This document shows, one piece after another, positions 12,166-46,702 of a stretch of DNA of 64,000 nt. The position numbers and the translations under genes are program-made. The stretch comes from Cucumis sativus (taxonomy: Eukaryota > Streptophyta > Magnoliopsida > Cucurbitales > Cucurbitaceae). The stretch is from the NCBI RefSeq assembly GCF_000004075.3, contig NC_026660.2, forward strand, positions 5,146,001 to 5,210,000, in the 5' to 3' direction. Under the pieces are notes generated by a model. That model saw only the letters and a list, made by a program, of their open reading frames with translations, was not told the origin of the DNA and did no database searches. Position 1 is the stretch's first letter, and the number at the start of each line of letters is the position of its first letter.

Positions 12166-13437
12166 ATGGCGGCTTCCAAATCTCTTCTCCTCTTCCTCGC
12201 CATCGCCGCCACTGCTGCCATCGTCTCCGCCCACAATATTACCGACATGCTCAAAGACTTCCCTCAGTACAGCGTCTTCAGCAATTATCTCCAACAAACC
12301 AGACTCGCCGACGAGATCAACAGCCGTCAGACCATCACCGTCCTTGTCGTCGCCAATGGCGCTCTCTCTCCTATCCTCGACAAACATCCTCTCTCCGTTA
12401 TCAAAAATCTACTCAGTCTCCACATCGTCTTGGACTACTACGATCCCGCGAAACTCCACAAGATCTCCAACGGGACCACTCTCTCCACTACGCTCTACCA
12501 AACCACAGGTCACGCGCCTGGAAATCTAGGTTTCGTCAACATTACCGATCTCCAAGGCGGTAAGGTTGGATTCGGCTCCGCCGTACCCGGATCTAAACTT
12601 GAATCAAGTTACACGAAGTCGGTTGTGAGTTTGCCATACAACATTTCGGTTATTGAGATTAGTGCACCGATTGTAGCGCAGGGGATTTTGACAGCTCCGG
12701 CTCCCTCGGCTTCCGACGTTAACATAACGGCTTTGCTCGAAAAAGCTGGGTGTAAGACGTTTGCGGCGCTGATTGTTTCTAACGGTGTGATTAAGACTTA
12801 CGAATCGGCGGTTGAGAAAGGATTGACTATATTTGCGCCGAACGATGAGGCGTTTAAAGCCGATGGAGTTCCAGATCTGAGTAAGCTTACTAATGCTGAA
12901 GTTGTTTCACTTCTTCTATACCATGCTCTTCCTGGTTACACTCCCATCGGCACATTGAAGACCACTAAGGATCCAATCAATACTCTGGCTACTGGAAGTG
13001 CCGGAAAGTTCGACATTACCACGACTACGGCCGGAGATGCAGTTACTCTCCACACCGGGGTTGGACCATCGAGAGTCGCCGATACAGTCCTGGACTCGAC
13101 TCCGCTCGCTATTTTCAGCGTCGATAGTGTGTTACTCCCATCTGAGTTGTTTGGAAAGTCTCCTTCTCCAGCGCCAGCACCAGAGCCAGTGAGTTCACCT
13201 TCGCCGACGCCGTCTGTTGCTCCGAGTCCAAGCCCTATAGCGAAGGCTCCATCTCCATTAGCGGCGTCGCCACCTGCTCCTCCATCGGACACGCCGGAAG
13301 GTTCGCCAGCAAATGCACCTTCTGCGGAAGCGGAAACAAGTACTCCGGGAAGTTTCGCCGTTGGGGTGAAAGCGTCGGGTATGGTTGCTGTTGCCGTCAT
13401 TGCTACCACTATGATTTCGTCTCTTTTGTTGTCCTAG
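12166..13437 (+). CDS. FLA8: Fasciclin-like arabinogalactan protein, FLA8/FLA10 type
   Basis: Single-exon gene of 423 residues. Residues 1-22 are a cleavable signal peptide ending IVSA before [14 protein letters not shown]. The first FAS1 domain spans about 24-165 ([38 protein letters not shown]). A Pro/Ala spacer ([10 protein letters not shown]) leads to the second FAS1 domain at about 187-335 ([35 protein letters not shown]). The tail is rich in AP, SP and TP dipeptides, the glycomodules for arabinogalactan O-glycosylation, and ends in a hydrophobic segment ([17 protein letters not shown]) typical of a GPI-anchor signal. Two FAS1 domains plus GPI fit the FLA1/2/8/10 group; the opening sequence and the neighbouring AHL and LBD genes favour FLA8. 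The protein is expected at the plasma membrane and wall, in adhesion and wall assembly. Codon usage is GC-rich at the 5' end compared with the flanks. Confidence 0.93.
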
Positions 13438-18931: not shown

Positions 18932-19780
18932 TCAATACGGTGGCCGACCTCCTCCCCAAAACGCCGCCGCTGCTTCCCCCGGCAATTGACATGAAGAATT
19001 CACAACATTCTGCGCCATACCATGAAACAATCCCCCGTTAGGATCCCCCAACAATTGGGGCGGCGGTGGTGCTGCAGCCGCTTGTTGTCCCGCCATCTGA
19101 TCCGGCGCCGGTGAAGTTTCATCCTCATCATCAATAGGTAGCCGCTCATACGCAGCATTACCAAAAGAAGCGGCCATGATAATCACCGGTCCAGATGCCG
19201 AAAGTGGGCCGATAACATTCCCACCGACGACCTGCCCCTGCCCGCCAGCCAAGTAAACGGTAAGACCGGAGGCTGCTGGGGGAGCCGGGGGTGGGAGGAA
19301 AGAACCGGAGAGGGAGAGAATTTCAAATCTGCCAGGTAAGGTGATGACAGCGCCGGGGGAAGAGGGCTGGCGGAGAGTGACGTTGGCGACGGTTCCAGTG
19401 GCGCTAAGAATACAAACACCACGCTGGCGACGGCGTGCGAAGGTGGCGAGGGAATCGACGATGTCGGAGGCGGTGGAGATTTCGATGAGATGAGATCTGA
19501 GGGCGTTGGCGCTATCTCTAGTGATAATAATAGGTGGCTTTGGCTTGTTTTTGGAACCGGCTGGTCGGCCACGTGGGCGACGAGAAGAAGAGTTGGATAA
19601 TTCTTTGGTGTCGTCGTCCATAGTGGGGTTGTCGTCGGAGTCCCTGTCTCTCTTAGGTCCGGGGGTATGGTCGTCGTCGGAGTTTTGGTGGTGGGCGTGG
19701 AATAATCCATGGTGGAGATGGAGATCTTTGGAGAGGAAAGGAGGAGGAAGAGGGCGATTGTGGGGTGTAATTCCATCCAT
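18932..19780 (-). CDS. AHL22: AT-hook motif nuclear-localized (AHL) protein, AHL22-like
   Basis: Intronless gene of 282 residues. The N terminus is His- and Asp-rich. Residues 67-82 are a type-I AT-hook ([17 protein letters not shown]) that binds the minor groove of AT-rich DNA. The PPC/DUF296 domain follows at about 84-215 with the conserved [12 protein letters not shown] at 150-161 and a [17 protein letters not shown] strand; PPC mediates AHL trimerisation and recruits partners. The C-terminal tail is Ala/Gln/Pro-rich and ends FWGGGRPPY, a terminal motif of clade-A members. Intronless structure and one type-I hook also indicate clade A (AHL15-AHL29). The AHL22 label rests mainly on the neighbouring LBD18, LBD19 and FLA8 genes. 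The frame stays open upstream to 19930, but that part is translated CT repeat; ATG 19780 gives the usual family start. AHLs of this clade repress growth genes and affect hypocotyl elongation and flowering. Confidence 0.92.
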
Positions 19781-29740: not shown

Positions 29741-32168
29741 AACTAAGAGAAGTGAAATTTTTCTATAAGAGAAATTGTGAAAAGAAACAGTTTATGTAAG
29801 TAGAAGAGAAGTTTAAAGTCCTACGGCTCTTAATTTAGAATTCTGTCTGTTTTCAATATCATAATAATGGAAGGGGGCAAAAAGGAAAGGCCCATTGTTT
29901 TTGTTTTGTAGCATTTATAAGGAATAAATACATATGTCAGTCAGTATGTGAGTGGAGAGCTTTATACCAATCCCAACACACATCCCACGACTCGACTTGG
30001 TCGTCTCTCAAGGGTGGAGCTCACGAAGATTCACCGTGAGTGGTTTATCAAACTAACATTTACCACGGTTTAGCTTTTCTTTCCTATTTTAAGTTTACCT
30101 CGCTCTGCTTGCTTCAGTGGTTGAATCTGATGTGGGAAAGGGTGATGATCTTAATTAGTAATTGTCACTGGAGTAGGATGTAGTTGTCTCCACGATTGGA
30201 ATTTTGCGAGTAGGTTGGTGTTATGTCTCTTTTCTGTATTATCTCTGTATACTTGTAATAGGGTTGCATAGTACTATTGTACACTTCCTTAAGAAGCAGG
30301 TCGATTCGATAATTGTGTGTTAGGCTTTTTGAACTGTTGATTTTGAAAATCTAGTGGCTCAATCAACTGCATCTTATTAACTTTAAGATGTCAAATATAT
30401 AACTTATTATGCAAAAAATATAAAAGTTTTCTTTTTGAGAATATGTGAAGAGAAGATAGAGAGTCAAAGGGCAAAGGCCCAAATATTATAATTAATGGAT
30501 AAAAGTAGCCCAAGCTCAGGTCAGGATAGGGCTTGGCTCATCAGAAGGGAAATGGATACCATACTTCTTTTACCTTGAAACATTTACGGGTATTCGAGAC
30601 CAGGAGTGAATTATTTTAATCTAGATTATTATAAGTTTGATTAAACTAGTTTACGTCTGAGATGTAGATTATTTTAGATTGGATCTATTCTATTCAATAC
30701 CGTCGTGGTTTTCCTTTGGGCCATTTGACTTGAAAGAACTAATAGAATCTTCAATAGCAAGGCTAGAACGGAGATCGAGTTATGGGAAGATATAACAGCA
30801 CTCACGGGCCTTTGGAGTAGTAGAGCTAAACTATTCTCTAATTATGATGCTAGTACTATTGCATTAAACATTAGATATGTTGTAAATTTAGGAATTAGAT
30901 TCAACATAATTAAGTATAAAACAACATTTTAAAAAATTTGCAAACATAGCAAAATTTATCAAATTCTATCAATGATACAAGTCTATCATCGATAGGCTAT
31001 GTTGTAAATATTGGTTTATCACTGATAGATCATACAAGATTATCAACGATACAAGTCTATCAGCGATTGTTTTGCTATATTTGTAATTTTTTTAAAATAT
31101 TACTATATCCTTAATTATTATTTCTCAAATGACCATCAATTACAATTACCCTAAACATTAAGGCTTTTGTATAACTTTTTGTAGGCCTGTTGGGCTATTC
31201 TCTAGCCATTTTCTTTGGACATTGATTAATTCCTTACTTCCTATACTTGTTTTCTTGATATTTATGAAACATGAATGATGGTAGAGGTAAACGAGTGTCC
31301 ACCTAGTAGAAATGTCCATATGCACCTATTGACACCTGTAGTATGTGTTTGACGTGTAGACTGTTTTAGTTTTTTAGTTTGATATGGAAAATAGTAAATA
31401 TTGTAGTAAAGAATAAAAAATGATAAATTTTGAATAGGAAAAATTGTAACAATTAGTAAATTTGGTAGTTAATTAAAAGTTTTAAAATAGTGTTTAACTT
31501 ACCTAATTGAATATTTTTAAATAATATTTACTCGAGGAAGATGAATATTTAAACTAATTTTAGAGTGAATTTCCGAGTGCTTCACAAATAGAATTTTAAG
31601 TGCCAAGAAGGATTTAAATACGAAAAAATTAATTTCATAAGAGTCCTAAAGTGTGAACATAAGTATCAATAGTTTGTACGATCAAATTCCTCAATATAAT
31701 CGGTTTTAAGAGTTAAGAGTAAGACCTATAATATTGTAATACAATCATCATTATCATTTCATATATATATAATATATATTAGACAAACTTTTAATGGGTG
31801 ACTCACCAACCAACTAACAATGATTGAAAATAGAACATGTTTAGAAAAGAGAGAAAATATAACAAAAACAATAGTCTAATCTTAAATTTTGAATAGAAAA
31901 AAATAGTTTCATAAAAAAAATTAGTTTCAACTAATCTGTGTTCTCTGTTTCTAATTACTTTAAACATGTAGAATATAGTTTAAAAAATTAATGAAAGATT
32001 AACATTTTTTAAATATATTTCTTTCTTTTTCTTGCCTTTTAACTCCAATCAATTTTCTTTGTAAAAAAAAAAAAAAACAAATTCTAGCACCCTTCAATTT
32101 TCCAGTAAAATTTTGACAAAAGAGGAATCAAAGAGGCAAGAATTTAAGTTATATAAAAAAAAAAAGTT
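29741..32168. other. Spacer between CML and LBD18-like genes
   Basis: Holds the CML promoter (immediately right of 29740) and the 3' flank of the LBD18-like gene. No gene recognised. It includes the MITE-like element at 30926-31098. A TATATATATAATATATAT stretch lies at 31761-31778. Confidence 0.45.
30926..31098. mobile_element. MITE-like foldback element with TCTATCA repeats
   Basis: About 173 bp bounded by imperfect terminal inverted repeats: left ATTTTAAAAAATTTGCAAAC followed by ATAGCAAAA, right TTTTGCTATATTTGTAATTT followed by TTTTAAAAT. Between them CTATCA-containing words alternate with GATAGACT/GATAGGCT-type words (for example gatacaagtctatcatcgat and its variant at 31048). There is no coding capacity. 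I see no clear target-site duplication, so the ends are approximate. Similar fragments occur near 3247, 17170 and 26830, so this is a dispersed family, of a kind I associate with cucurbit genomes. Confidence 0.55.
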
Positions 32169-34544
32169 TCATTTCGAGAGCGATTGCGGCGACGAGGCGT
32201 CGGAGCACGGCGGAGCGCCGTGTCTAAGGAGGAGTTCGCGGGCAAGGGCTTGAAGATCACCCTCTCCTGGCGCCGTGGATGAACCGCCACCTCCGCCGGC
32301 GAACTGGCGGTGGTCGAGCCGTTGCTGTTGCATGGCCCATGCAGGCTGAGCCATTGGGTCGAAGAGCGACGACAAGTCATAAGTGGCCGGCAGGGAGGAA
32401 GCCGATGGCAGGTCAGAGATAGAAAGCGGTGGTTGCGCCGGAAAACTTGGCGGGGGAGGTGGCGGAGGTGGGTTCGGCGGCGACGGGAGCTCTAGTGTTG
32501 CTAGATGGGCTTGAAGGTACGTCAGCTCGGCTTGTAAACTCACCACCTGCCAATGTTTTGAATTTCACACATATATATATTCTATTATTATTATTAACCT
32601 TCTAATTCAATCTCAAAGTACTTAGAAAGATTACACAACAAATAAAAAAGTGATCTGTAAAAATCTCTGTTTTCATTGTTGGATTATGTTGGTTGAGGTA
32701 AACAAATTTTCAATTATAGAATTGTTTTTTTGGGGTATTATTTTATAAAATAAGTAAATTACCAACCATACTGTTAATACACAGTACACAGACATTTACG
32801 TAGTAGGTATTTCCAAATGTGCAGTATACATATTAGGTACAAAAAACAAAAACAAAACAAAATAACTATTATACTCCAATATATACATCAAACATTTTTC
32901 AAAAAACAGGGAATATAATATGATCAAGTTAAATCATACGTAAATTACCTTAAGTTTAAAACTGTAGTCCATAGGCTTCATTCACTTTCACGCATTTATG
33001 TTTTCCTTACCATCAAACTTGTACTGATAATTTTAACTACGAAAAACTTAGCTCCTAATTAATAAAATTTTCACTTTTAGTTTTATATACTTCAAAATTC
33101 TTCAAATTCTTTGTTTTCCCATCTGTTAATAATAGTTTTGAAATCTTATCCAATTTTTTTTTTTAAAAATGTTAAAATTTTAGGTTTTTAGTTTAAATGT
33201 AGAGAACAGATTAATTAAAATCCTGCGTGTGTAATGAAAAGTTTCCAAAATAAAGCATTACATATTTAAGAAAGCAAAACATTATGACCACATTTGGTAA
33301 TTATATTCTTTTAGTTTTTGAAAATGAAGTTAACAAATAGTTGTGTATTTGTTGTGTATTTTTTACCAAATGAAATTGAAATACTAAAGAAAGTAGTTCT
33401 GAAAAGGGAAAATAGACAAAATTAAAAATATATATACGTATATGGAAGAAGGTATTACGAATTCAATTGATATATATTGTGTGTTATTTTTGATTTTGAG
33501 AAGATACACTAACAGGAAGCTAAAAATTGGGGAAACGTAGGAAATGAGTGTTGTCTCTCTAATCAAAGGGCTTAACTTTAAGGCTATAGACAGACCAATT
33601 CCCTAATAAGTGCAAATAATAATAATAAAACAAGGAATAAAAACCCCCAAAACACTCAAAAAAAGAAGACAGATCACTTTGATTAGGGAATAATACCGCA
33701 GTAACCGCCGAAGAAATGATTTGATAATAATCAACGAATGACTGATAGCTCTAGATTTTGAGTAAACTCAGTAGGGTAAAATAAAAATAAAGTTAAACTG
33801 CCACCCTAATTAAATTTAATTACTAGCTTTTCCTACCCATTTAAGGGTATAGTGTACCCTAGTATTTGAAGGGTATAACAGCCCTATATCTCTAAAACCC
33901 CATTTCTTTTAGTTGCCTTTTTTGGGTTTTCAAAACTGAAACAAACAACCCCCATTTTTAAAATAAAAATAAGAAAACTCAATTTCCCACTTCTGAAATA
34001 GCTTCAAAAACTAGCCTTTGTTTGAAACAAGTAAATTTCCATAAAAGAAATATTACAAGACAAACAGAATTATTTATTTCCATTAATTAGTATTTATTAT
34101 GCAAAATAAGAAAGAAAGTGGAGATAAAATATAATAAATATACAGTCAATCTGAATACACCTTAACAAATCAAGATGGAGAATCAAAATTCAAGTTTACC
34201 TGTTGTTGAAGAGCGAAAATATGAGCAACGCAACCGTATACGGGGTCTCGGAGGCGGGCTTGAGCCTCGTAACAAATAGTGACGACGGCATCCAGACGTT
34301 TGTGGACGGGAATATGAAGGAGGAGCTTGGAGACGTTGCTAGCTCCAAACACCTTGTGTACAGCTGCGAAATGAGCTGCCCCTTGCTCGGAGTCAAAATA
34401 AGGAGCAAATATGCAACCGGGAACACACTTTCTTCTCAAAAACTTGCAAGCCCCACATGGACCTCCTCCGCCGGCACCGACACTCCCGCCGGTACTGGCA
34501 GTTCCCGGCCCTCCGCCGCCGCTTGTACTAGGGTTGGCACTCAT
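32169..34544 (-). CDS. LBD18: LOB-domain transcription factor, LBD18-like
   Basis: Two exons, 34200-34544 and 32169-32546, join in phase 0 (CAACAG|GTAAAC ... TTGGCAG|GTGGTG) to give 240 residues. After a Gly/Ser-rich N terminus, the LOB domain has the CX2CX6CX3C zinc-finger-like block with cysteines 30, 33, 40 and 44 ([15 protein letters not shown]), the GAS block ([20 protein letters not shown]) and a coiled-coil [18 protein letters not shown]; the intron interrupts between GAS block and coiled coil. The C-terminal region is Pro-rich with [19 protein letters not shown] and [13 protein letters not shown] motifs and ends SLSK, closely like Arabidopsis LBD18. LBD18 is an auxin-induced nuclear activator downstream of ARF7/ARF19 in lateral-root emergence and tracheary element formation. 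The 1653-bp intron is long for the family. It is divergent from the LBD19-like gene 9.4 kb away, with which it shares a promoter element. Confidence 0.94.
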
Positions 34545-34742
34545 GCTAGGAGATAGATAACAAAAGAATTTTGATTTTTATAAAAGTAGATATGGATTTT
34601 GAAGGGAGAAGAGGGGGTTTTAGGGTTTGGTGGAAAATTGAGGAAGTGAAAGAAATGTATTTTTTTGGGGGGAGGATTTTAATTTAATGAGGAGAAAGAA
34701 GAGAAGAAATGACTTTATTTGAAAAGAGGAAAATAAAAAAAT

Positions 34743-34743
<1 letters not shown>

Positions 34744-34780
<37 letters not shown>
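34744..34780. repeat. GAAA tetranucleotide microsatellite
   Basis: About nine AAAG/GAAA units 200-240 bp upstream of the LBD18 start codon, between the gene and the conserved 23-bp element. It reads TTTC on the gene strand. A further TTTC tract lies at about 34912-34932, beyond the element. Confidence 0.88.
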
Positions 34781-34781
<1 letters not shown>

Positions 34782-34825
34782 TCTTTAAAGCCACGCGAGA
34801 GAGCAAAGCCTTAACACCTACATTT

Positions 34826-34848
34826 AGCTGCTTGCGTGAAGCAAACAT
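34826..34848 (-). promoter_or_regulatory. Conserved 23-bp element, LBD18 copy
   Basis: Read on the gene strand this sequence runs from ATGTTTGC through TTCACGCAAGCAGCT, and is identical over 23 bp to 43704-43726 upstream of the LBD19-like gene. It lies 281 bp upstream of the LBD18 start codon. Its core GCTT-CACGC-AAGC is an imperfect palindrome with a C/GACG-type centre. Farther downstream a TTTAAAGACT stretch also resembles CTTTAAGACT at the LBD19 copy. No match to a named plant element is claimed. Confidence 0.7.
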
Positions 34849-35929
34849 GCGATAAGCCCTATTGCTAAATATTACTCTCTTTTTCTTTTTATATTTTTAG
34901 TGCTCTCTCTCTTTCTTTCTTTCTTTCTTTTTAAATTCTCTCACTTGAAATCCCTCGTGAGTTTTTGTTGTTGTTTTTTTTAATCTTCTACCTATACAAC
35001 ACTCTCTTCTAATAATTCTAATTATAATTGTAACACATTATTTAGAGAGGGGGTATTTTTGTTTTCTTATTAACAAAGTAAATATTATATATAAAGAAAT
35101 TGGTAGGTTTGGAGACGTGTCCAACAGACTGTCTAAATTTTGCCACACTGCGAGTTTTAAGCTGCGTGGAGAGCAAAAGACGTCAACCTTTTCTTTCTTC
35201 TTTTCTTTTCTTTTTTTTTTTTGCTAATGGGTTCAAATTGAATAATGACTCAGCTTCTTTTATTTATATATATTTTTCATTTATGGCTTTTCATTTACTA
35301 TAAAAAGCCAAAAGAGGAAAGTGGGTAAGAAAAGCTATATGAGACTCATATCCAAAATCACCTTCTTCTTTGATTTATAATGATGAAGCCCTTTTGAAAC
35401 CCAAGCCACTCAAAAACTCAATAGTTGAAGGAATGAGTGCGAGAGTGAGACAGAATTGGCTCTGCTCTTAACTTTCCAAAAAAACAACACATTGTATGAA
35501 AAATGGTGCTATTTTTTCTACAAAAATTCCTGAAGAAACAGACCGTAATATACCATTGTTTTCGTTAAAGATAAAATAGGAGGTTCGAATATTTTTCTCT
35601 TTCAAAAAATGATCAAATGAAATTGCACTATACACTGATTAAAGTTATTTTATTCTTTAATAAGTATGATAATCTTTAACTTTAAACTATTGAAAGCATA
35701 ACCAAGCTAGGAACGTAACAAATATGACATGTTAATTAATCAAAATTAAAAGATGTTATTGATGAATAAGTAGAATTGTTTAATGAAGCTCAAAATTGAG
35801 TAATTTTAGAAAATTGAATTAAAGTATTGAAAATGTGATGGGATAAATTGAGAGAGAAGAAAATGATGTAAATGTGTGGGTGTGATGAGAGAGGGGAATG
35901 AAGAAAAAGGTCAAAAATAAGAAGTTCGG

Positions 35930-36065
35930 CGTTCAAATGTGGGGTCCAGGGAACAGTGTGCACCAATTTGGGGATGCCACGTTTGAGTCGGTGAGCAGGA
36001 ATGTAACGGCCGGGTAATTTGATGACCTCAGATCGAGAGTAGGGGCCCCACGCGCCGTTCAAACT
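35930..36065. other. GC-rich island 1 between the LBD genes
   Basis: About 135 bp of GC-rich sequence including GTAACGGCCGGGTAATTTG and GTAGGGGCCCCACGCGCCG. The latter contains GTGGGGCC on the minus strand, which fits the class-I TCP consensus GTGGGNCC. A minus-strand frame starting at 36062 (MNGAWGPYSRSEVIKLPGRY...) is open through the island for about 50 residues before low-complexity sequence. Protein, conserved non-coding sequence or enhancer cannot be separated here. Confidence 0.35.
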
Positions 36066-37489
36066 TGTTGTATAATAAGGTAACGTCTTCCTTTCTCTCT
36101 TTCTCTCTTTCTTTCTTTCTTCATTATCATTATTTATTATTTTCTTTTAATAACAAATTTCACTACTTTACTTTTTTTAAAAAAATTAAAGTTATATATT
36201 AATGCTAATACCAAATTAAATTTCGTTAACTTTTCTAAAAAACAACAACAACAACAATAAAACATGTCATTATAGTAATGAGTTTGCATTCATATTATAT
36301 CAACCATCCTTTGAAATTCTTTATTTGATTGTGTTTACAAACTCTATAATTATATATTGTTAATTAACTAAAGTATAAAAAAAATGAAAAGGATGAAAGG
36401 TTAGTAAAAAAAAAAGTAGGGTGAATCCCACGTAATAGTCAAATGTAAAGGAATAAAATTGCTGTTAGGAATTTTGCATTGGAATTACAACACATTAGTA
36501 ACAATGAATGGAGTCCCATTTTTAAAAACACATAACTAACAATTAATCACGAAACAATTCAAAATAGACATTATTGGTGGATGCTATAAGACCATTCTTC
36601 CACCAACACATGTGCCTCAAATAGGAAAACAAGAAAGTCGATTTCTCAATTCAACATTTGTCTACTCTTTCTCTGCATTTCATCTCTATATTTCTTCTTT
36701 ATTATATATATATATACAATACCAAATGGTAACTTAGTAATGTGCCACCTCTCCAATACACTTTAAACACTATGAATTGGTTTCTTCAGTTTGTAAATTA
36801 CAAATCTATTTTATAAATTTTTAGGTTTGTGTGTTGTTGTTTAGTTCCATTTAAAAGTATATGAAAAGTGTGTATGCTTTATTTATAGTCAAAATATTTA
36901 AATATCTATTAGATACAAAATATAAAATTCAAAACCAAACTGACAATTTAATTTTTCTTATATTTATATTTTTCAATAAGCAAAAGATTGATGTGAGTGT
37001 TGAATCAATCAATATTCAAGCATAGATAAAAAATGTAAATAAAATTCTGTGTTTTACTTTTGTAATACCATTATAATATTTAATTTTTAAACAAATTTAA
37101 ATAAGTTGGAGTAATTAAATGTAGTTTAATAAAAAAATTTGTTACAAGAGTTCGATCAAATTATACAGATGCTAAATTATAAAATTTTAAATTAACGAGA
37201 ATATAGTAAATATTATTTCAATTATTTATTATCTATGTTAATTTGAATATAACCCAATTATTAAAAAGAGGTGAGTTTTAGAAATAAATTACTGGTTAGA
37301 AAGGCTTAAAATAAAAAATACAAAACCAAAAGTGGGAAAGATTAAAAATAAAAAAATAAAAAAATAAAAAAATAAAGAAAGAAGAACCAATAGTTGAAAT
37401 TAATAATTTAATGATAGAAAAAAAAAAAAAGATAAAAATTATAAATAGATGTAGAAGGAAAAAAGAGAAAAGAAAAAGAGTAAACAGTT

Positions 37490-37610
37490 GGTAACGGCGG
37501 ATGACCGCGGTGTCCGGCTTTTGTCCAATCCCTGCGGTGTGAAGAGGAAGCACTGACAGACATCTTCCATTCAAATCCCACCATAATATTCACACGTGTC
37601 TCCATCTCAT
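37490..37610. other. GC-rich island 2 between the LBD genes
   Basis: About 120 bp with GGTAACGGCGGATGACCGCGG and CACACGTGTCTCC. The CACGTG is a G-box, immediately followed by TGTCTC, the classical auxin-response element. Short minus-strand open frames cross the island in two frames and neither is recognisable. Confidence 0.35.
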
Positions 37611-40089
37611 CCCTTCCTCTCTTTTCTTTTCATTTTCCTTACGTCCTCCCCTTCCTCTCTTTCATTCCTAATGCAAATATTAATTATAATCACTTACCTA
37701 ACTATTCATTTCTTTTATTTCAACGCAAATATTTTACATCTATTAACATACTAATTCCTCAAACTAAATAGATGTAAATAAATTATAATTTACTTTTATT
37801 TCACTTACGTAAGAACACATGATAAGGAAGAGTTGGTGAAAGAAATTGCACATGCATCAATACTTATTTAAATATTGGAGCTTTTCAAACAAATTTCTAA
37901 CTATAACAAGTTCGTGAAATATATGTATAATGAAAACGTGAAGTTGGATAGAACTTTAAATTTATGTAACGGTTGTTAATAAAGTTAACTTTCTTTTCTT
38001 GCATGGAGAGATTCCATTGAAACTAAAACGTTTGGTAGTTCCACCCAATTCATTGTTTTTCTTTTTGAGAAACTTATGGTAGAAGTGTTGCATATATCTA
38101 ACAGTTATGAGCATATCAATTTAATGCCAATATCAATTCTCAAACAACTTGCTATTATTAAAAGTAGCCTAATTTAAAAGTTATTTTACGTGATAATATT
38201 TTTTTTAAAACTCGAGTTAATAATTTAACGCTCCAAGTTTTCATTTACCTCTATAGTCTAAGTACAAAACTTAATTTACATATCAAAATATGGATTCCAT
38301 GGGCTTTTTTTACCTATTTATAAGAAAAAAAAAAGTCGATGGACTAACCAAATTTTATAATTAAAATCGTGTTTATTTTTTCAATTCGACATGAGGTTGG
38401 AAGGATCAACCCATTCATAGCTTGCATATACTTATTAAATTATGCTTAAATTGACTAAACCCGTTAATTTTTCCCAAACCACATGCCCCACTTTCAACAT
38501 TTTAATGGATCTAAAGGAAATATTGTCACACGTTTGTATCAAAAAGCTAGCTAAGATTACAAGAAAAGAGATTCAAAAAGCTATAACCCTAGCTAAGCCT
38601 TTTCTCTTCTAATTTCATTTTTTTTTCTCATGGATTCTACTGTTTTTTTTTCTTCTTCCATTCTAACTTGGATTCAAACTCCTGCTTTTAAGCCTTTCTT
38701 GATACAATTAGTGAGATAATGTCGTGGAATGAATTTGAAAATTGAAGATAAAAGAAAAGCTCGTGACCCTTTCTATATAAAATCATATTAGTTTGTAACC
38801 ATTCAATCACTGTACATTATAATTAAATTATAATAATTTTGAAATATAGTAACTAAATCTTTGTGTATCAAAATTTAGAGACTAACTCATTCGTTTGACC
38901 ATTTTTTTTTGTTAACAAGAACTTTGAATGATCATAGACTAAATTAAAAAACAATTAAATTAACAAACATTAATCAAGGAGCAACTTATATACATACATA
39001 TATATATATATATATAATTGAGATATATAATAAATAAAGATTGTCCCACGAGTTCACAAAACGTGTAACCAAAACCTAGAATTCATAAAGTTTGGTCCCT
39101 AAAATGCATGTAAAAATAAAATATAAATAAGGTATGATTGCTTTCCCAAATTTAAGGGTTTAAGAAATATATATTTAATTACAGTATGTCACCTGAGCAA
39201 ACGGCAAATGCAGCTTCCAATAGACTAACAAAGTCAATTTATAAACGTCGAAAAGGAACAATAACTTTTTCTAAAAAAAGATTAATTATTTGGGTTTAAT
39301 TAGAGACATTAATAATGATTAATTGTTTTTTTCTTTTGTTTTATTTATTATGATTATGAAAACTCTTGGGGTCAATCAGAAAGATTTAGACCCTAAACAA
39401 TAATTAATTAAATGTAACCCCTACTTTCTGTTTCATATACTTTACAATAGTCGTTTTGGTCAAAAGATTTTTGAAAATGCATTATGATATTGTGCATGGA
39501 CAAAGACCCTTTTCCTTTAATTTTCTTTTGCTTATTAGTCAATGTAAGTCGATGCATTAAAATGTGTGTTTTTTATTTTCTTTCTCTTTTAAAAAAAATA
39601 CTTCAATAAAATTAATCTTGAAAAGAAATAGTTGTAGTTTTGAATTAGGATAAAAATGTTTTATTTGAAAGAGGGTTTAGTTTTGAGTTGTTTAATTAAT
39701 GAAGGGTAAACAAGATTAAATTATTGATATAAGGAGTGACATTTGTGTAACATTCAGCACTAGAATTTATTTAGTAACAACCAGTTGACAAAATGTAGCC
39801 GTTAGCATGTAATTATTTTGAAAATTGGAAGATGACGTGATCTAGCAACCAACTTCAACAGCTTTTGGCAGATTTATAATTTGACTGTGCATGAGAAATT
39901 CGTGAATTCAAAACGTAATTTTGTCTTAAACACAAGTTACCAATTTTAGCTCAATCAATTATCAATTGCCTCTCGGCTATCAATCACTAAATTAACCAAA
40001 TGACTCCATCTCAATATTACTTAAGTTAAATGATATATTTGAAAATTGAGAACATTTAATCAAAGAAGTAAAAATGAAAAATTAGTAAA

Positions 40090-40262
40090 AGAGAAGGGAA
40101 GTGAGGTGGCATCAACGTTGTAGGATGGGAAATAGAAGGAGTCCCAGATCGGGTGCCACGTTTAAAGAAGTGACGTTTGAAGATAGAGGCGTGGATTTTG
40201 GTGCACAGCTGATTTGCGTCCCCAATCACTCCCCATTTTCTCCTTCTCCCTAATCTATTCAT
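40090..40262. other. GC-rich island 3 between the LBD genes
   Basis: About 170 bp with higher GC content, including GGGTGCCACGTTTAAAG and GAGGCGTGGATTTTGGTGC. It shares the 10-mers TGCCACGTTT (40154) and, inverted, TGTGCACCAA (40198) with island 1. A minus-strand open frame of 68 codons starts at 40262 but shows no family. Confidence 0.33.
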
Positions 40263-43200
40263 TTCTCTTTCTCCTCTATATCTTAATTTTAATTTTTAAC
40301 TTTTTTACTTCAACCATATTTTAATTTAACTGAATTAGCTTTTTTCAATATTGAATTTTCCTCTTTTGTTCTCAAATAAAATAATTTATTTGAAAATTTT
40401 CAGTCAATCAAATAAACTTATTTAATATTTGCGATCTGATGGATATAAAATTACGGATGGTGCAACATTTATCATTACAAATGGCAATGCAAACTCAATA
40501 TGTATATATAATTTTGTTGGATAATAAAGTGAATTACAATATTTTATGAAACTCCAGTATAAAAAAATTGACAACAAAAAAGTAAAACAATAACTTAATG
40601 CAACAATGCAATAGACAACGAATGCATACATTTACATAATTTACAAACAACGTGCTATAGCTATGTCACTCCATGGAAGAATAGTTTACATTAGAGGAAA
40701 TAATTTAGATTAAAGATTAGAAACACCTTTAGAGATAGAGTTTATATATATAACACACTTTTTCAAACTTTAGGTCAAAATTATACCCAACACAAATATG
40801 CTAGATATGAATAGGGTTTGAAAGGTGTTGCTCCTTTAACCTCTACTAGATTGTATAATCTCTCGGATATTGACTTGCTAAGTGGTTTGTGAGGCTCCCA
40901 CACTTGATCGTTCAAGACATTGCATATATGAAGATATTAGAAGCAAATAAAAGTTTTTAACACCTTCAACACTAATTATCTAAGCTGAGGTAGGATATTT
41001 TATTTTCTATTCACTTGGAAGATTTAAGAAGTATTTAATTAATAGGGTGGTATTTTTATTATTGTGTCATTCACTCATTTCATCTACACATACCCCTATT
41101 ATATGTATTGAAAATCTTTTCACTTCTCAACCACTATGAAGAAATTCAATGATGAAAAGCAATAGATTTATTAAAAGAGACATCAATGGTGAGAATAAAT
41201 AGTTTATTTGATTTTAATGATGAATGAGATATAATTTATGAGAAGTTTTCTGATCTTTTCAATTATTTTTGCCCCCACACGTGTGAGCTAAAATAGGCAA
41301 ACTATTTGTCCACAGAACTCTTGATTGATTAAAAGAGAAAAATTAGAGGATATCATATAGCCTATCTGTTTGTGATCCCATCAATAGCAACCAAACTTTG
41401 CTTTATTATTGTCAGATGTGAGAGGCCACTGTTACCAACATTAATATGTTCTTGGACCTACATGTACCCTAAAAACACATTACTAACCTTTTTTTCCTTC
41501 TCTTTTTTATACATTTTTGTGGGATTCTATTATAGTTATTGTTGGAATTGAAATTTTTAAAAATTAGTGCAGCTCTAGCATCATTCAACCCTAAATCCTA
41601 ACATAATTCAACTAACCATTCAAAAGCTTGATAATTTTATTATGTATGTGAGCAACAATATATTCCAAAAACAATAACCGAACAAAGGCATGTCAATTCA
41701 GGATGAGGTAAATATATGATTCTTACCTTTATAATTGATCATTTATATTTAGTCAATATTTTAAAGGTAACATTTATTAAAGTTGTGGAGATGTGTGTTT
41801 TGATAAAATGTAAATTATTGAGGCCTAAAACTATTGTGTATTGGCATAGCTTTGAATGATGCAATGTTCATTTAATAGCAACATTGTATAATTATATGCA
41901 GTTAAGATTTTCTTTTACACTATAGCTTTATTTATTAATGGGTTATATGCATGACTTTTGGGGTTTGCCTTCCATTTGACTCCAAATCAAAATAAAATCT
42001 CTTTTATGACATTCATATCATGAATCCCTTCAATATTTCAATGAATCATAAATATTTTAATCAATTGAATATTTATTCTTCTAATGATTTTTTGTTAGTC
42101 TTAAAGGAACTATACAATAAGAAATGAACAATAATGTCGGTGTAAGAGCTAGGGAGGTTCCATTTTCAACGTCACATTTGTTAAACTAAAATAATAACAA
42201 TAATACTAAAAGAGAAATACATCTTCATCAACCTTAGCATTTTAGTATTTATTTTGATGGACCAAAATTGTAACCTCCAAACTGGTGAAATTAGATGTCA
42301 TCAACCTATGTTGTCTTCTTTGGCCATTAATGACATTTCTTTTCCCTTTTAAGTCAAATATTTTAGTCCACAAATCCATTTCTTGGAATATAAAAAAAGC
42401 ACTTCAGCCTTTTCTTCTATTCTTCTTCTTCTTCTTTTATCAGTACAACCTCTAGTAGGTAGCCCCAATTAATTAATAAGAAAACACAACAAAGACAATA
42501 TGATAATAATGGGTGGAAGCTAGCTAGCTCATGTCCATTTTATTTATTAAAATGTATATAAGCCCTAAATGTTCATTTCAAATTTGATTGAGTTTGATGA
42601 AACTTATCAATCAACTAAAAATATATATGTCTTAGACATATTCAAATTGGTTAAAGACATTTTTGATTAAATTTTCATTCTTATGCAGTATTCTCACCTC
42701 TTAAAAAACAACATTTTCTTCTTATCATATTTATCATAGGCATGAATAAGTAACCATTATTGTTGCCAAACACAATAATATTGCATCTGTGTAAGTAAAG
42801 TAGGTTAAATATTACTAATTCTCAACTAAAAAATGTGCAGTGAAGAAGAAAATGAAAGTAAGTAAAAAAGGACAAAGTACAACAACTATGATTAAACTGT
42901 GGTAGTAGTTGCAATGACACCCTCAAACTTTTAGTTGTAAGAACGAGACTCTTAAAATTTTTCTAATATTGAGTTTAAATAACCCTTCGTAGAAATACAA
43001 TCTTAAACAATAAAAATTGAACCGTTTAATGTATACTTTTTGTATCCAATTTCAACACTCAATTCTTTTATTTCCAAAGTTTGACGATATAATTTTAACT
43101 ATTTGTACTTTAGGGAAGATTTCTACGTTTTAGGTTAACATACAAATTAAAAATGAAACCTACAAGGACTTGATCATCAAACCTACCAATGACCTCAAAG

Positions 43201-43703
43201 CTGAAACTAATATACTTCAACACGACTTCCCTTTCATCATGTGTTTAGAAATTAAATTAGCTAGTACACAAAATGGAACAAAATGACTATAATCAAATAT
43301 AAATGGAAGAGAAAATAACATAACATTTGGTATAAACTTGTTGGGTATATGATACTGACTTTGTTAGGGATGTAAGTAACTAGGTAAGTATGAATGTGAA
43401 GGAAGTGTATAAAGAGTTAAGATATATTAAGATGAATCATCGTTTTAAGAGACAGAAAGGGATAGATAATTGAATGATTTTGAGAGTAGATCAGCAGATA
43501 CTATGATGAAGGCTAGGTTTAAAATTTCTGTGTTGCAATGGAACATAAAAAATGGAAAAGACAAGAGGAGAGGAGGAAAAGGGAAAAGAGAGAAGAGATG
43601 TGATGGGATATATCTAAAAAAAAAAAAGAGTAGATGTGAATGTAGACGTGGCAGTCATTGAAAGGGGTTAAGAAGTTTGCTTGTGTCACCACTCGGTGTT
43701 TAT

Positions 43704-43726
43704 ATGTTTGCTTCACGCAAGCAGCT
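43704..43726 (+). promoter_or_regulatory. Conserved 23-bp element, LBD19 copy
   Basis: This copy is identical to the minus-strand reading of 34826-34848 and lies 179 bp upstream of the LBD19-like start codon, in the same orientation relative to the gene. The surrounding sequence is not otherwise alignable except for a CTTTAAGACT stretch about 25 bp further on. Given the match length and the matching orientation and position, chance identity is unlikely. Confidence 0.7.
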
Positions 43727-43905
43727 GCCCCTCAACTTCCCCTCCTCTTTAAGACTCAAACCAAAATCACACACTAAAACACACAAAACTTTCACACAAT
43801 TCATCCAAATTTTCATCAAACTTTCAAATGTAAAGGGAAAAACCCCATTTGCCCTTTCATATGACCCACACCCAAACATCAATTGCCCTCCATCAACATA
43901 CCCTC

Positions 43906-46702
43906 ATGAGTACCGGCGAAGGCGGCGTCGCTCACGGCGGAGGGCCATGCGGCGCCTGCAAGTTTTTGAGGAGAAAGTGTGTGAAAGGCTGCATTTTCGC
44001 ACCCTATTTCGACTCTGATCAAGGCGCCGCCCACTTCGCCGCTGTTCATAAGGTGTTTGGAGCTAGCAATGCCTCTAAGCTCCTCCACCGCATCCCACCT
44101 CCCAAACGTCTCGACGCTTGCGTTACGCTTTGTTATGAAGCTCTCGCTAGGGTTCGAGACCCTGTCTATGGTTGCGTTTCTCAAATTTTCTCCCTCCAAC
44201 AACAGGTTAGTTCGCTAATTATAGTTGATACCTAAGTTTTTTAATTATCAATCAAGTAGTTAAACTCATGGTAGCTAATTATGAATTTAAGCTCTTGAAT
44301 TCGAAAAACATTTAACTTAACATATCGAAACAAGAAGTGCAAGCTAAAATAACAGAGACGAAAAACATGGAAAAAGATCAAACCAAAGCTAAAGTACTAA
44401 TTACTGATTTTGAAGCTTTGATTTAAAGGTGAGTTTGTTTTAACATCCATTTTTAGGGTTTTGAGTGTTTGAATGCGAAAAGAGGAAAGTAAACAATTTG
44501 TAAAGAGATTTTATGATTGTGGGTTGCAGTTGTAATTATTATAATTAATCAAATGGGATTTTGCTTGAAAACCATGGCGACTTGCATTTCTAGGAAACAA
44601 ATTATTAGGGTTTTCTTTTTGGAAGGAATTAATTAATGAAAGAGCTTCCCATTTTCCAATGAATTATTTGTCAAACTATTTGAAATAGTTGTTTTGAAAG
44701 AGAGAGAGATAGAGAGCGGTGGCGGCTGCCTAATACTTGGTGTGTTGCTTCACAAACTAGCCAAACAATTTTAGCTGCTCCATAAATTTTTATATATAAT
44801 ATATATCTAAGTTTCTACATTTGACTTTCTCTTATTTATTCTTTTCATTATAATCATTTTATCTTAAATAAAAAATAAACCAACCTTAATTATGTTTGTA
44901 TATTTCCAAGAAACAAAAAGAAGGATAAGGTTTAAGTTGAATTTGTATTCATCTTTAAAAGACAGAGAGAGAGAGAAAGAAAGTGAGCTTTAAGTTGAAT
45001 TAGATATAAAATTAAGTTTTAAACCTATTAACATTTGTTTAACTTCTAAAGTTTTTCGAATTTGTTCTTTACTTCTTAGGTGTAAAATTGAAAGTGTAAG
45101 ATTTTGTCAAACATATCTATTTTTCTTTTTCTTTTTGTAGTTTAAGAAACAATTAGAATCAAATCTCAAAGTTAAGAAATTTGTAGAACAGTTTTTTTTA
45201 AAGCTTGGAAACCCAGATGGACTTAATTATCAAAGTTTAAGAGCTAGATATATATATATTTTTTAAATTTAGATTTTAGACTTTTGTTGGATATTTGTAT
45301 AAATAAATTGAAAAAGGTGTCTAAGCAAAGGCAATTTTACGTAATTATTATTATTGTAATAGTCTATAGATTGATCTTTTTTCTCTCTTTCTTTTCTATG
45401 GATTGAACTTGAAGTTTTCATTTCACATGGTCTTATTTTATTGTTGCAAATGGAATAGTTAATGCATTGAATTACTTCCTTTAATAAAATTCATATGAGT
45501 TTCATTTTAATCTTTTGCTTGCTTGTTTTGCTTTATGTTTTCCAAGAATATCAAATTTTCTTGTCGTTTTATGGCTTCTTATTTTCTAGTTTTGTCCACG
45601 AAGCAATCTCCCTTACATAGTACAATTTCACAATTTTGATATATATTATTGGCTATCTTGGATAACAAATACATACATTTTGTATATATCTACATGCAAA
45701 TACGACACATACTTATATCTTAAATACGATGCGTGTTAGTTTGCATTTTAAGATAAGTTAAAAAAGAATCTTCCGTTAAAGTTTCAAATTCATAAGACTT
45801 TTTCGTTTCGTTCTTATCCGTTTCATTTTTCATGGAACTTTATTTATTAGTTATTAATGTTATATTTGGATTACAACATTTTATTAATATCATGACTTGG
45901 AGGGTATTTCTATATTTGATCATAGTCTAGTCCAATATACATTTATGATGTCCATAGAATTTTATTCAACTTAGAGTTTTATAAAAAATAAGAACAAGGT
46001 TTATCAAGATGTTTTTCCCTTGGTACTCATAATATATAACTTTTTTATATAAAAAATTGTCAAAATTTTACACCTCATAGTGTTATAGATATTTGCAAAA
46101 AAAGTGAAGTGTAAATAGTTTAAACCCATAAATCTATATAGAAAATCATTACTCAATCTAAAGCAGTTTTAAGTTCCTTATCAAAGAAGAAAATAAGAGA
46201 AAAAAGAGAAACTTTTTCACTCTTTGATTCAAACAGATTCTCACTATATCATTGATTTGTGAGTTAATAGATACTAATTAGCCAAAAATACAATAATTTA
46301 TAACGACTACACTATGCATGATGATGACCTAACCCTAATTCAAATAAATGTTTATTACAGGTAGTGAATTTGCAGGCAGAGCTAGCATACATTCAGGCTA
46401 AACTTTCCACCTTGCAGCGGTTATTTCCACCGCCACTACACACCCCGTCACCCACCACTTGCAACACTCCGCTACCAGAAGCGATCCCGGACTCGGACAT
46501 GGGTTTGTTTCCCAATGTTCCAATGCTGCTTGACCCCTTACAAACCCAGCTAGGTTGTAATGAAATGACAAATAGCTTTCTGAACCCAGTTGATTATCAA
46601 GATCAGATGGATGAAGATGGTGGTCTTCAATCTTTGGCTCGAGAATTCGTCTCGAGGTGCTTGCCTGGAGTACGAATCCGGCCCCCATGCTCACAGATTT
46701 AA
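43906..46702 (+). CDS. LBD19: LOB-domain transcription factor, LBD19-like
   Basis: Exons 43906-44205 and 46361-46702 join in phase 0 (CAACAG|GTTAGT ... TTACAG|GTAGTG) to give 213 residues, with the intron at exactly the same LOB-domain position as in LBD18. Cysteines 15, 18, 25 and 29 form the CX2CX6CX3C block ([15 protein letters not shown]). The GAS block is [20 protein letters not shown] and the coiled coil [18 protein letters not shown]. The C terminus differs from LBD18: it lacks the long Pro/Gln stretch, keeps a [14 protein letters not shown] segment and ends PPCSQI. The family match is class-I LBD near LBD19/LBD20; the LBD19 name follows from adjacency to LBD18. An in-frame ATG at 43849 would add 19 residues without LBD character, so ATG 43906 is preferred. 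Expected role: nuclear DNA-binding factor in organ formation, probably auxin-responsive. The intron is 2155 bp. Confidence 0.92.

Follow-up and report, generated by a model that had tools for sequence, protein, structure and literature searches.

What keeps a block of 23 bp identical upstream of two neighbouring genes, when the rest of their promoters can no longer be aligned? The question is raised by a stretch of 64,000 nucleotides from Cucumis sativus (contig NC_026660.2, positions 5,146,001 to 5,210,000; hereafter the window, with positions counted from its first letter), in which two divergent genes of the LBD family lie side by side, an LBD18/30-like gene on the minus strand (gene A) and an LBD19/31-like gene on the plus strand (gene B). 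The element, ATGTTTGCTTCACGCAAGCAGCT, is found at 34826..34848 on the minus strand (copy A, at -304 to -282 relative to the start codon of gene A) and, as the identical 23-mer, at 43704..43726 on the plus strand (copy B, at -202 to -180 relative to the start codon of gene B). An earlier note on this DNA had described the two copies as identical, as oriented alike relative to their genes and as lying 281 and 179 bp upstream of the start codons, all of which holds exactly (with the ATGs at 34544 and 43906). From the results described below, it seems that the 23-mer is probably a constrained cis-element.

The identity between the two copies is beyond chance, since the longest word common to the 2-kb upstream regions of A and B (same orientation, 30% GC each) is 23 bp, compared to at most 18 bp in dinucleotide-shuffled promoter pairs (n = 1000). 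With the element masked, the longest common word drops to 14 bp, and BLAST of the two regions gives no further alignment at E 0.01 besides the element, which agrees with the earlier remark that the rest of the upstream DNA does not align. Within the genome to which the window belongs (226.6 Mb in 88 contigs, both strands), the exact 23-mer occurs twice, and with up to 3 mismatches allowed there are 3 copies in total (reversed control: 0), the third having 1 mismatch. All 3 adjoin either an LBD18/19-type gene or the relic of one. A small-RNA target was considered and rejected, as a genome search of both strands to 3 mismatches would reveal a precursor and none appeared. Comparison of 20 bases of the element with viral contigs gave no match, as expected.

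Both genes carry a LOB domain in their first exon (gene A: 34200..34544, minus strand, Pfam PF03195, E 4.1e-35, exon end placed by eye at a GT donor; gene B: 43906..44205, plus strand, PF03195, E 3.3e-33, exon end likewise by eye), and the approximate second exons lie at 32169..32546 on the minus strand for gene A (open frame 32172-32564, acceptor ..GGCAG/GTGGTG by eye) and at 46361..46702 on the plus strand for gene B (open frame 46328-46699). The two are adjacent and fall within a clade of 8 rows among 30 LOB rows. Across the 86 LOB-domain codons compared, synonymous divergence (dS) amounts to 2.1, with 0.71 as the proportion of synonymous differences (pS) and 0.10 as nonsynonymous divergence (dN), i.e. 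the pair is near synonymous saturation, as befits the old paralogues that they had been taken for. Unconstrained DNA of that age is expected to be randomised, so that selection on an old cis-element would be the best reading of the shared block. In Arabidopsis, LBD31 and LBD19 adjoin LBD30 and LBD18, with each set taken as duplicates (PMC2721968). If the window pair is orthologous, the neighbour pair predates the split between LBD18/19 and LBD30/31; this orthology is presumed from the arrangement, as compared with PMC2721968, and from the gene labels of the earlier note. The A-like paralogue L025 (C3:7850736, minus strand; dS 2.3 to gene A) is probably the segmental duplicate of gene A, because an AHL paralogue lies near each of them: about 21 kb from L025 on the same strand, and about 12 kb from gene A in the form of an AHL-like gene (18935-19780, minus strand).

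The age of the element can be narrowed down by its third copy (C3:6279217-6279239, plus strand), which keeps 22 of the 23 bases. The surrounding stretch of C3 (L044:4796-5323) is a decayed fragment of gene A, consisting of upstream region, leader and scraps of exon 1. Its alignment with gene A runs from about 34965 to 34494, the latter position being just within the coding region, with 339 of 484 alignment columns identical (43 gaps). The start codon is lost, exon 1 survives only as those scraps, and 29.9 kb of C3, when searched for the second exon of gene A, gave no convincing match (best E 8). Since the relic aligns with gene A and matches nothing upstream of L025, it derives from the A line, and since it holds the element in A-like flanks, the element was already upstream of gene A when that duplication took place. 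As a dead copy, the relic is also a natural yardstick for the gene A promoter. As a separate observation, about 280 bp of the window (30871-31149) are 71% identical to DNA adjoining the relic, with 54 bp also present inverted; possibly this stretch is a small palindromic transposon beside both gene A and the relic.

As far as tested, the element is specific to the A/B pair. LOB rows in the genome number 73 (exon fragments counted separately), and for the 30 with loci a scan took in the 1.5 kb that precede each domain, in which the element occurs only at A and B; the next best match to the 15-bp core has 4 mismatches, and the next best match to the 23-mer has 8. The other 43 rows were covered solely by the genome-wide search at up to 3 mismatches. 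This restriction to A and B among the 30 scanned loci speaks against a motif common to the LBD family, a reading that is rejected. Shorter words from the element were counted genome-wide as lower bounds, only the best candidates being scored. For the 15-bp core, at least 4 sites are exact and at least 6 have one mismatch (control: 0). The known copies account for three of the exact sites, and the fourth, on C1, matches the 23-mer with 6 mismatches, is flanked by frames that we take to be ATM-kinase-like, and looks like chance. For the 19-bp palindrome there are at least 3 exact sites, at least 3 with 2 mismatches and at least 56 with 3 (control: 23), and for the 17-bp word on the NAC side (see below) at least 3 exact sites, at least 1 with 1 mismatch and at least 43 with 2 (control: 13), although the excess over these two controls is not interpretable, as they differ in dinucleotides. 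Judged by eye from their open frames, none of the near-match loci L058, L059, L060 and L066 resembles an LBD promoter. Apart from the element, a stretch about 1 kb upstream of gene B (42874-42972) matches the upstream region of L025 at 71 of 99 bp, and may be a repeat or another conserved block.

Purifying selection and recent conversion had both been proposed for the shared block. A short gene conversion (or copy-paste event) that moved 23 bp between A and B more recently, without selection, would account for copies that are exactly identical in upstream regions where BLAST aligns nothing else and where a TTTAA(A)GACT patch is the sole further similarity noted. However, the element was in place upstream of gene A by the time the relic branched from it, and around the element 22-35% of the aligned bases now differ between gene A and the relic, while a tract of exactly 23 bp, without similar flanks and in the same orientation, is atypical of conversion in general. 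A recent exchange between A and B is thereby weakened, and we regard conversion as improbable, although the relic does not strictly speak against a transfer from A to B at a later date. Selection is the part of the proposal that fares better, the block being non-chance, non-repeat and older than the C3 relic in a pair that is nearly saturated at synonymous sites. The notion that a repeat or transposon fragment was inserted near both genes has in its favour that short identical words can stem from repeats, and occurrence at many unrelated genomic sites had been named as its mark. With the few copies found within 3 mismatches each beside an LBD18/19-type gene or relic, and with the relic accounted for by duplication of the upstream region of gene A, such an origin is hardly credible.

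The two remaining rivals concern RNA and peptide rather than DNA. Lying 179-281 bp ahead of the start codon, the element is close enough to fall within a possible 5′ leader, and it might be transcribed and act as leader RNA, since it can form a 7-bp hairpin (UGUUUGC-UUCAC-GCAAGCA, with one G-U pair) that is present in the minimum-energy fold of 43-nt stretches from all three copies (-11.7, -10.6 and -12.9 kcal/mol for the whole stretches from A, B and relic, respectively). The z-scores are only -1.3, -1.4 and -2.1, the stem is invariant in the three copies and hence offers no visible covariation, and Rfam gave 0 matches over the whole window at gathering scores, so that a leader RNA is an improbable explanation as well. 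The first three letters of the identical block are moreover an ATG, and its end falls within a Leu codon whose third base alone varies (CTA/CTG), which would suit a conserved start of an upstream open reading frame (uORF) acting through its peptide, MFASRKQL in A and B and MFASRKHL in the relic. The uORF of copy A (34684..34848, minus strand) has 54 aa and that of copy B (43704..44018, plus strand) 104 aa, the latter overlapping the start of gene B out of frame; both are probably incidental. Codons 2 to 7, six codons with a degenerate third position, are identical in A and B despite the near-saturated synonymous sites of the genes, which points to constraint on the letters of DNA or RNA and not on residues alone. 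The peptides are alike only up to residue 8, that of the relic ending at 10 aa, and only the uORF of gene B overlaps its main frame, whereas known conserved uORFs have conserved C-termini. A peptide uORF as sole cause is thus rejected, on the third positions kept between A and B and the divergent C-terminal peptides, and control by the peptide seems very improbable. If the leader includes the 104-codon uORF, translation of gene B could nevertheless be damped.

This leaves a constrained cis-element as the preferred reading, in which selection and a function at the DNA level are what we infer from the comparison of the copies. The extra conservation of the element in the relic speaks for it, and is real but modest: outside the element, 330 of 509 positions are identical in a wide MAFFT alignment that includes poorly matching ends (Fisher one-sided p 0.0008), while two tighter BLAST alignments, with 317 of 418 and 323 of 412 identical, give p 0.014-0.031. 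Against it, in about 9.4 kb upstream of L025 there is no trace of the element (best 9 mismatches), and it was either lost from L025 or never there. The element could also lie in the 5′ leader.

As to what might bind the element, the earlier note had seen a dimer-binding site in a palindromic core GCTT-CACGC-AAGC. A palindrome is indeed present, with perfect arms that are in fact TGCTT/AAGCA around 5 bp (CACGC) and with a longer form TGTTTGC-TTCAC-GCAAGCA that has one mismatch. Arms of 5 bp separated by no more than 10 bp also arise in 32% of dinucleotide-shuffled elements (n = 5000; the exact 5-5-5 form in 3.7%), and the palindrome is therefore weak evidence for a dimer site. The minus strand of the element holds TTGCGTG, a NAC half-site (core TTRCGTR), in A, B and the relic alike. 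A NAC protein is a candidate lead for the binder of the element, which we put forward tentatively, as possible rather than probable. Sites resembling SNBE, one of the consensus sites of secondary-wall NAC proteins (patterns from PMC3756741, PMC6309453 and PMC12329193), lie downstream of both copies: TCGCGTGGCTTTAAAGACT at 34780..34798 (minus strand), 27 bp 3′ of copy A and overlapping matches to VNS/ICSV and TERE, and TCCCCTCCTCTTTAAGACT at 43738..43756 (plus strand), 11 bp 3′ of copy B, which matches SNBE alone, with no VNS or TERE. They contain TTTAAAGACT and TTTAAGACT, respectively, i.e. the TTTAA(A)GACT patch that had been reported a little further on and is indeed found there. By chance, a TERE match within 60 bp would be expected in A at 0.5% (promoter shuffle) to 3.9% (local shuffle), and an SNBE match within 60 bp in either gene at 5-17% (for the site 3′ of copy B, 5-9%).

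A number of results count against the NAC proposal. TTRCGTR turns up in 1-2% of shuffled elements, and 21 patterns were tried, 16 of them independent of the element sequence, so that one half-site match at this frequency is weak. Each of the 1-kb upstream regions of A and B has a single TTRCGTR, i.e. there is no second half-site and no palindromic site of the Welner type. Over the element itself, SNBE (WNNYBTNNNNNNNAMGNHW) fits copy B and fails copy A and the relic, while VNS/ICSV (CKTNNNNNNNAMG) and TERE (CTYNAAMGCNW) have no match inside the element and, nearby, match solely 3′ of copy A. The 65 bp downstream of the element in the relic contain no SNBE, VNS or TERE match, and the odds of NAC are lowered because the relic lacks an SNBE-type site. 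SNBE and ICSV are moreover called permissive (PMC12329193), and SNBE elements are described as lacking the canonical CACG motif (PMC3756741), such that a general NAC protein would suit the core of the element (CACG) better than a VND protein. The claim that no named element matches needs qualification, given the TTGCGTG half-site inside and the loose SNBE fit in B, but stands for VNS/ICSV and TERE. It also stands for the LBD motif GCGGCG, G-box, AuxRE, BRRE, TCP, bZIP-I, HSE and VOZ, none of which matches inside the element; in copy B alone, the edges are overlapped by an E-box CAGCTG and by a reversed TATAAA. For a bHLH of the LHW/TMO5 type as binder, there was nothing specific among the literature matches listed.

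How the element could work may be pictured as follows. The 23-mer would be a proximal cis-regulatory element, either a single site for a transcription factor or two such sites in tight combination, that was already present in the ancestor of the tandem LBD18/19-type pair and that purifying selection kept in both genes while the remaining upstream DNA diverged beyond alignment. A dimeric factor would bind it, a NAC dimer on the TTGCGTG half-site being the single likeliest candidate, and the bound NAC might act together with the SNBE-type site 11-27 bp downstream. A positive loop links VND6 and VND7 with ASL19/LBD30 and ASL20/LBD18, and its step from VND to LBD is called an unknown mechanism in a 2013 review (both PMC3756741), and LBD30 is among the likely direct targets of VND7 (PMC12329193). 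In this way, the VND/NAC feedback loop known from LBD18 and LBD30 could extend to both genes of the pair. The furthest-reaching version, to which we would give little credence at present, is that of a fully constrained 23-bp composite site, specific to the LBD18/LBD19-type pair and kept for its whole life, perhaps throughout the rosids or angiosperms; by way of this site, a single NAC-containing complex would switch both genes on in the same cells and so couple the vessel loop to the little-studied LBD19/31. Should the element be conserved in other plants, it would provide a handle on the joint regulation of LBD18/LBD30 and their neighbours LBD19/LBD31, as well as on VND/NAC feedback onto LBD genes.

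The genes around the pair are of separate interest. Between 12166 and 46702, the window contains in order a fasciclin-like gene, an AHL-like gene, an EF-hand gene and the LBD18-like and LBD19-like genes, an order that presumably resembles the Arabidopsis LBD18 neighbourhood (FLA8, AHL22). The fasciclin-like gene (12166-13434) is copied about the genome, with dispersed partial matches on C1, C4, C5 and C7 (69-89% protein identity, some with stops).

Compared with known systems, the element is like NAC sites in that its TTGCGTG is identical to the half-site of the footprinted site TTGCGTG(6n)CACGCAA (PMC4106437). It is unlike VNS/ICSV in that its CTT/AAG arms are 5 bp apart instead of 7, and unlike degenerate NAC motifs in that its conservation spans 23 bp, more than those need. 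The VND6/VND7-LBD18/LBD30 loop in xylem vessel differentiation involves the gene class to which gene A belongs, although the accessible parts of PMC3756741 and PMC12329193 name neither LBD19/31-type genes nor the element. Those of the cucumber and melon LBD family papers (PMC4108051, PMC11049230) name no such element either. A literal search of the open-licence literature (supplements and figures being outside it) with 12- to 14-base pieces of the element listed no title on LBD promoters, and among the literature matches listed there was no report of a conserved noncoding element at LBD18/19/30.

The element is most readily compared with intragenomic conserved noncoding sequences between plant paralogues, on which Freeling reportedly worked in 2007, and to which it is similar in being short, exactly shared and placed upstream of duplicated genes that encode transcription factors and have otherwise unalignable promoters. 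The noncoding identity of the paralogues is beyond chance here, and the paralogues are old enough for randomisation. Loss of such a sequence in one paralogue accompanies lower expression (PMC4906602). The element is a real, non-chance, locus-specific conserved noncoding block, and, while the kind is known, this member appears undescribed in the literature searched. Sets of intragenomic conserved noncoding sequences come mostly from whole-genome duplicates, whereas the pair in the window consists of old divergent neighbours, accompanied by a dead third copy that still holds the element.

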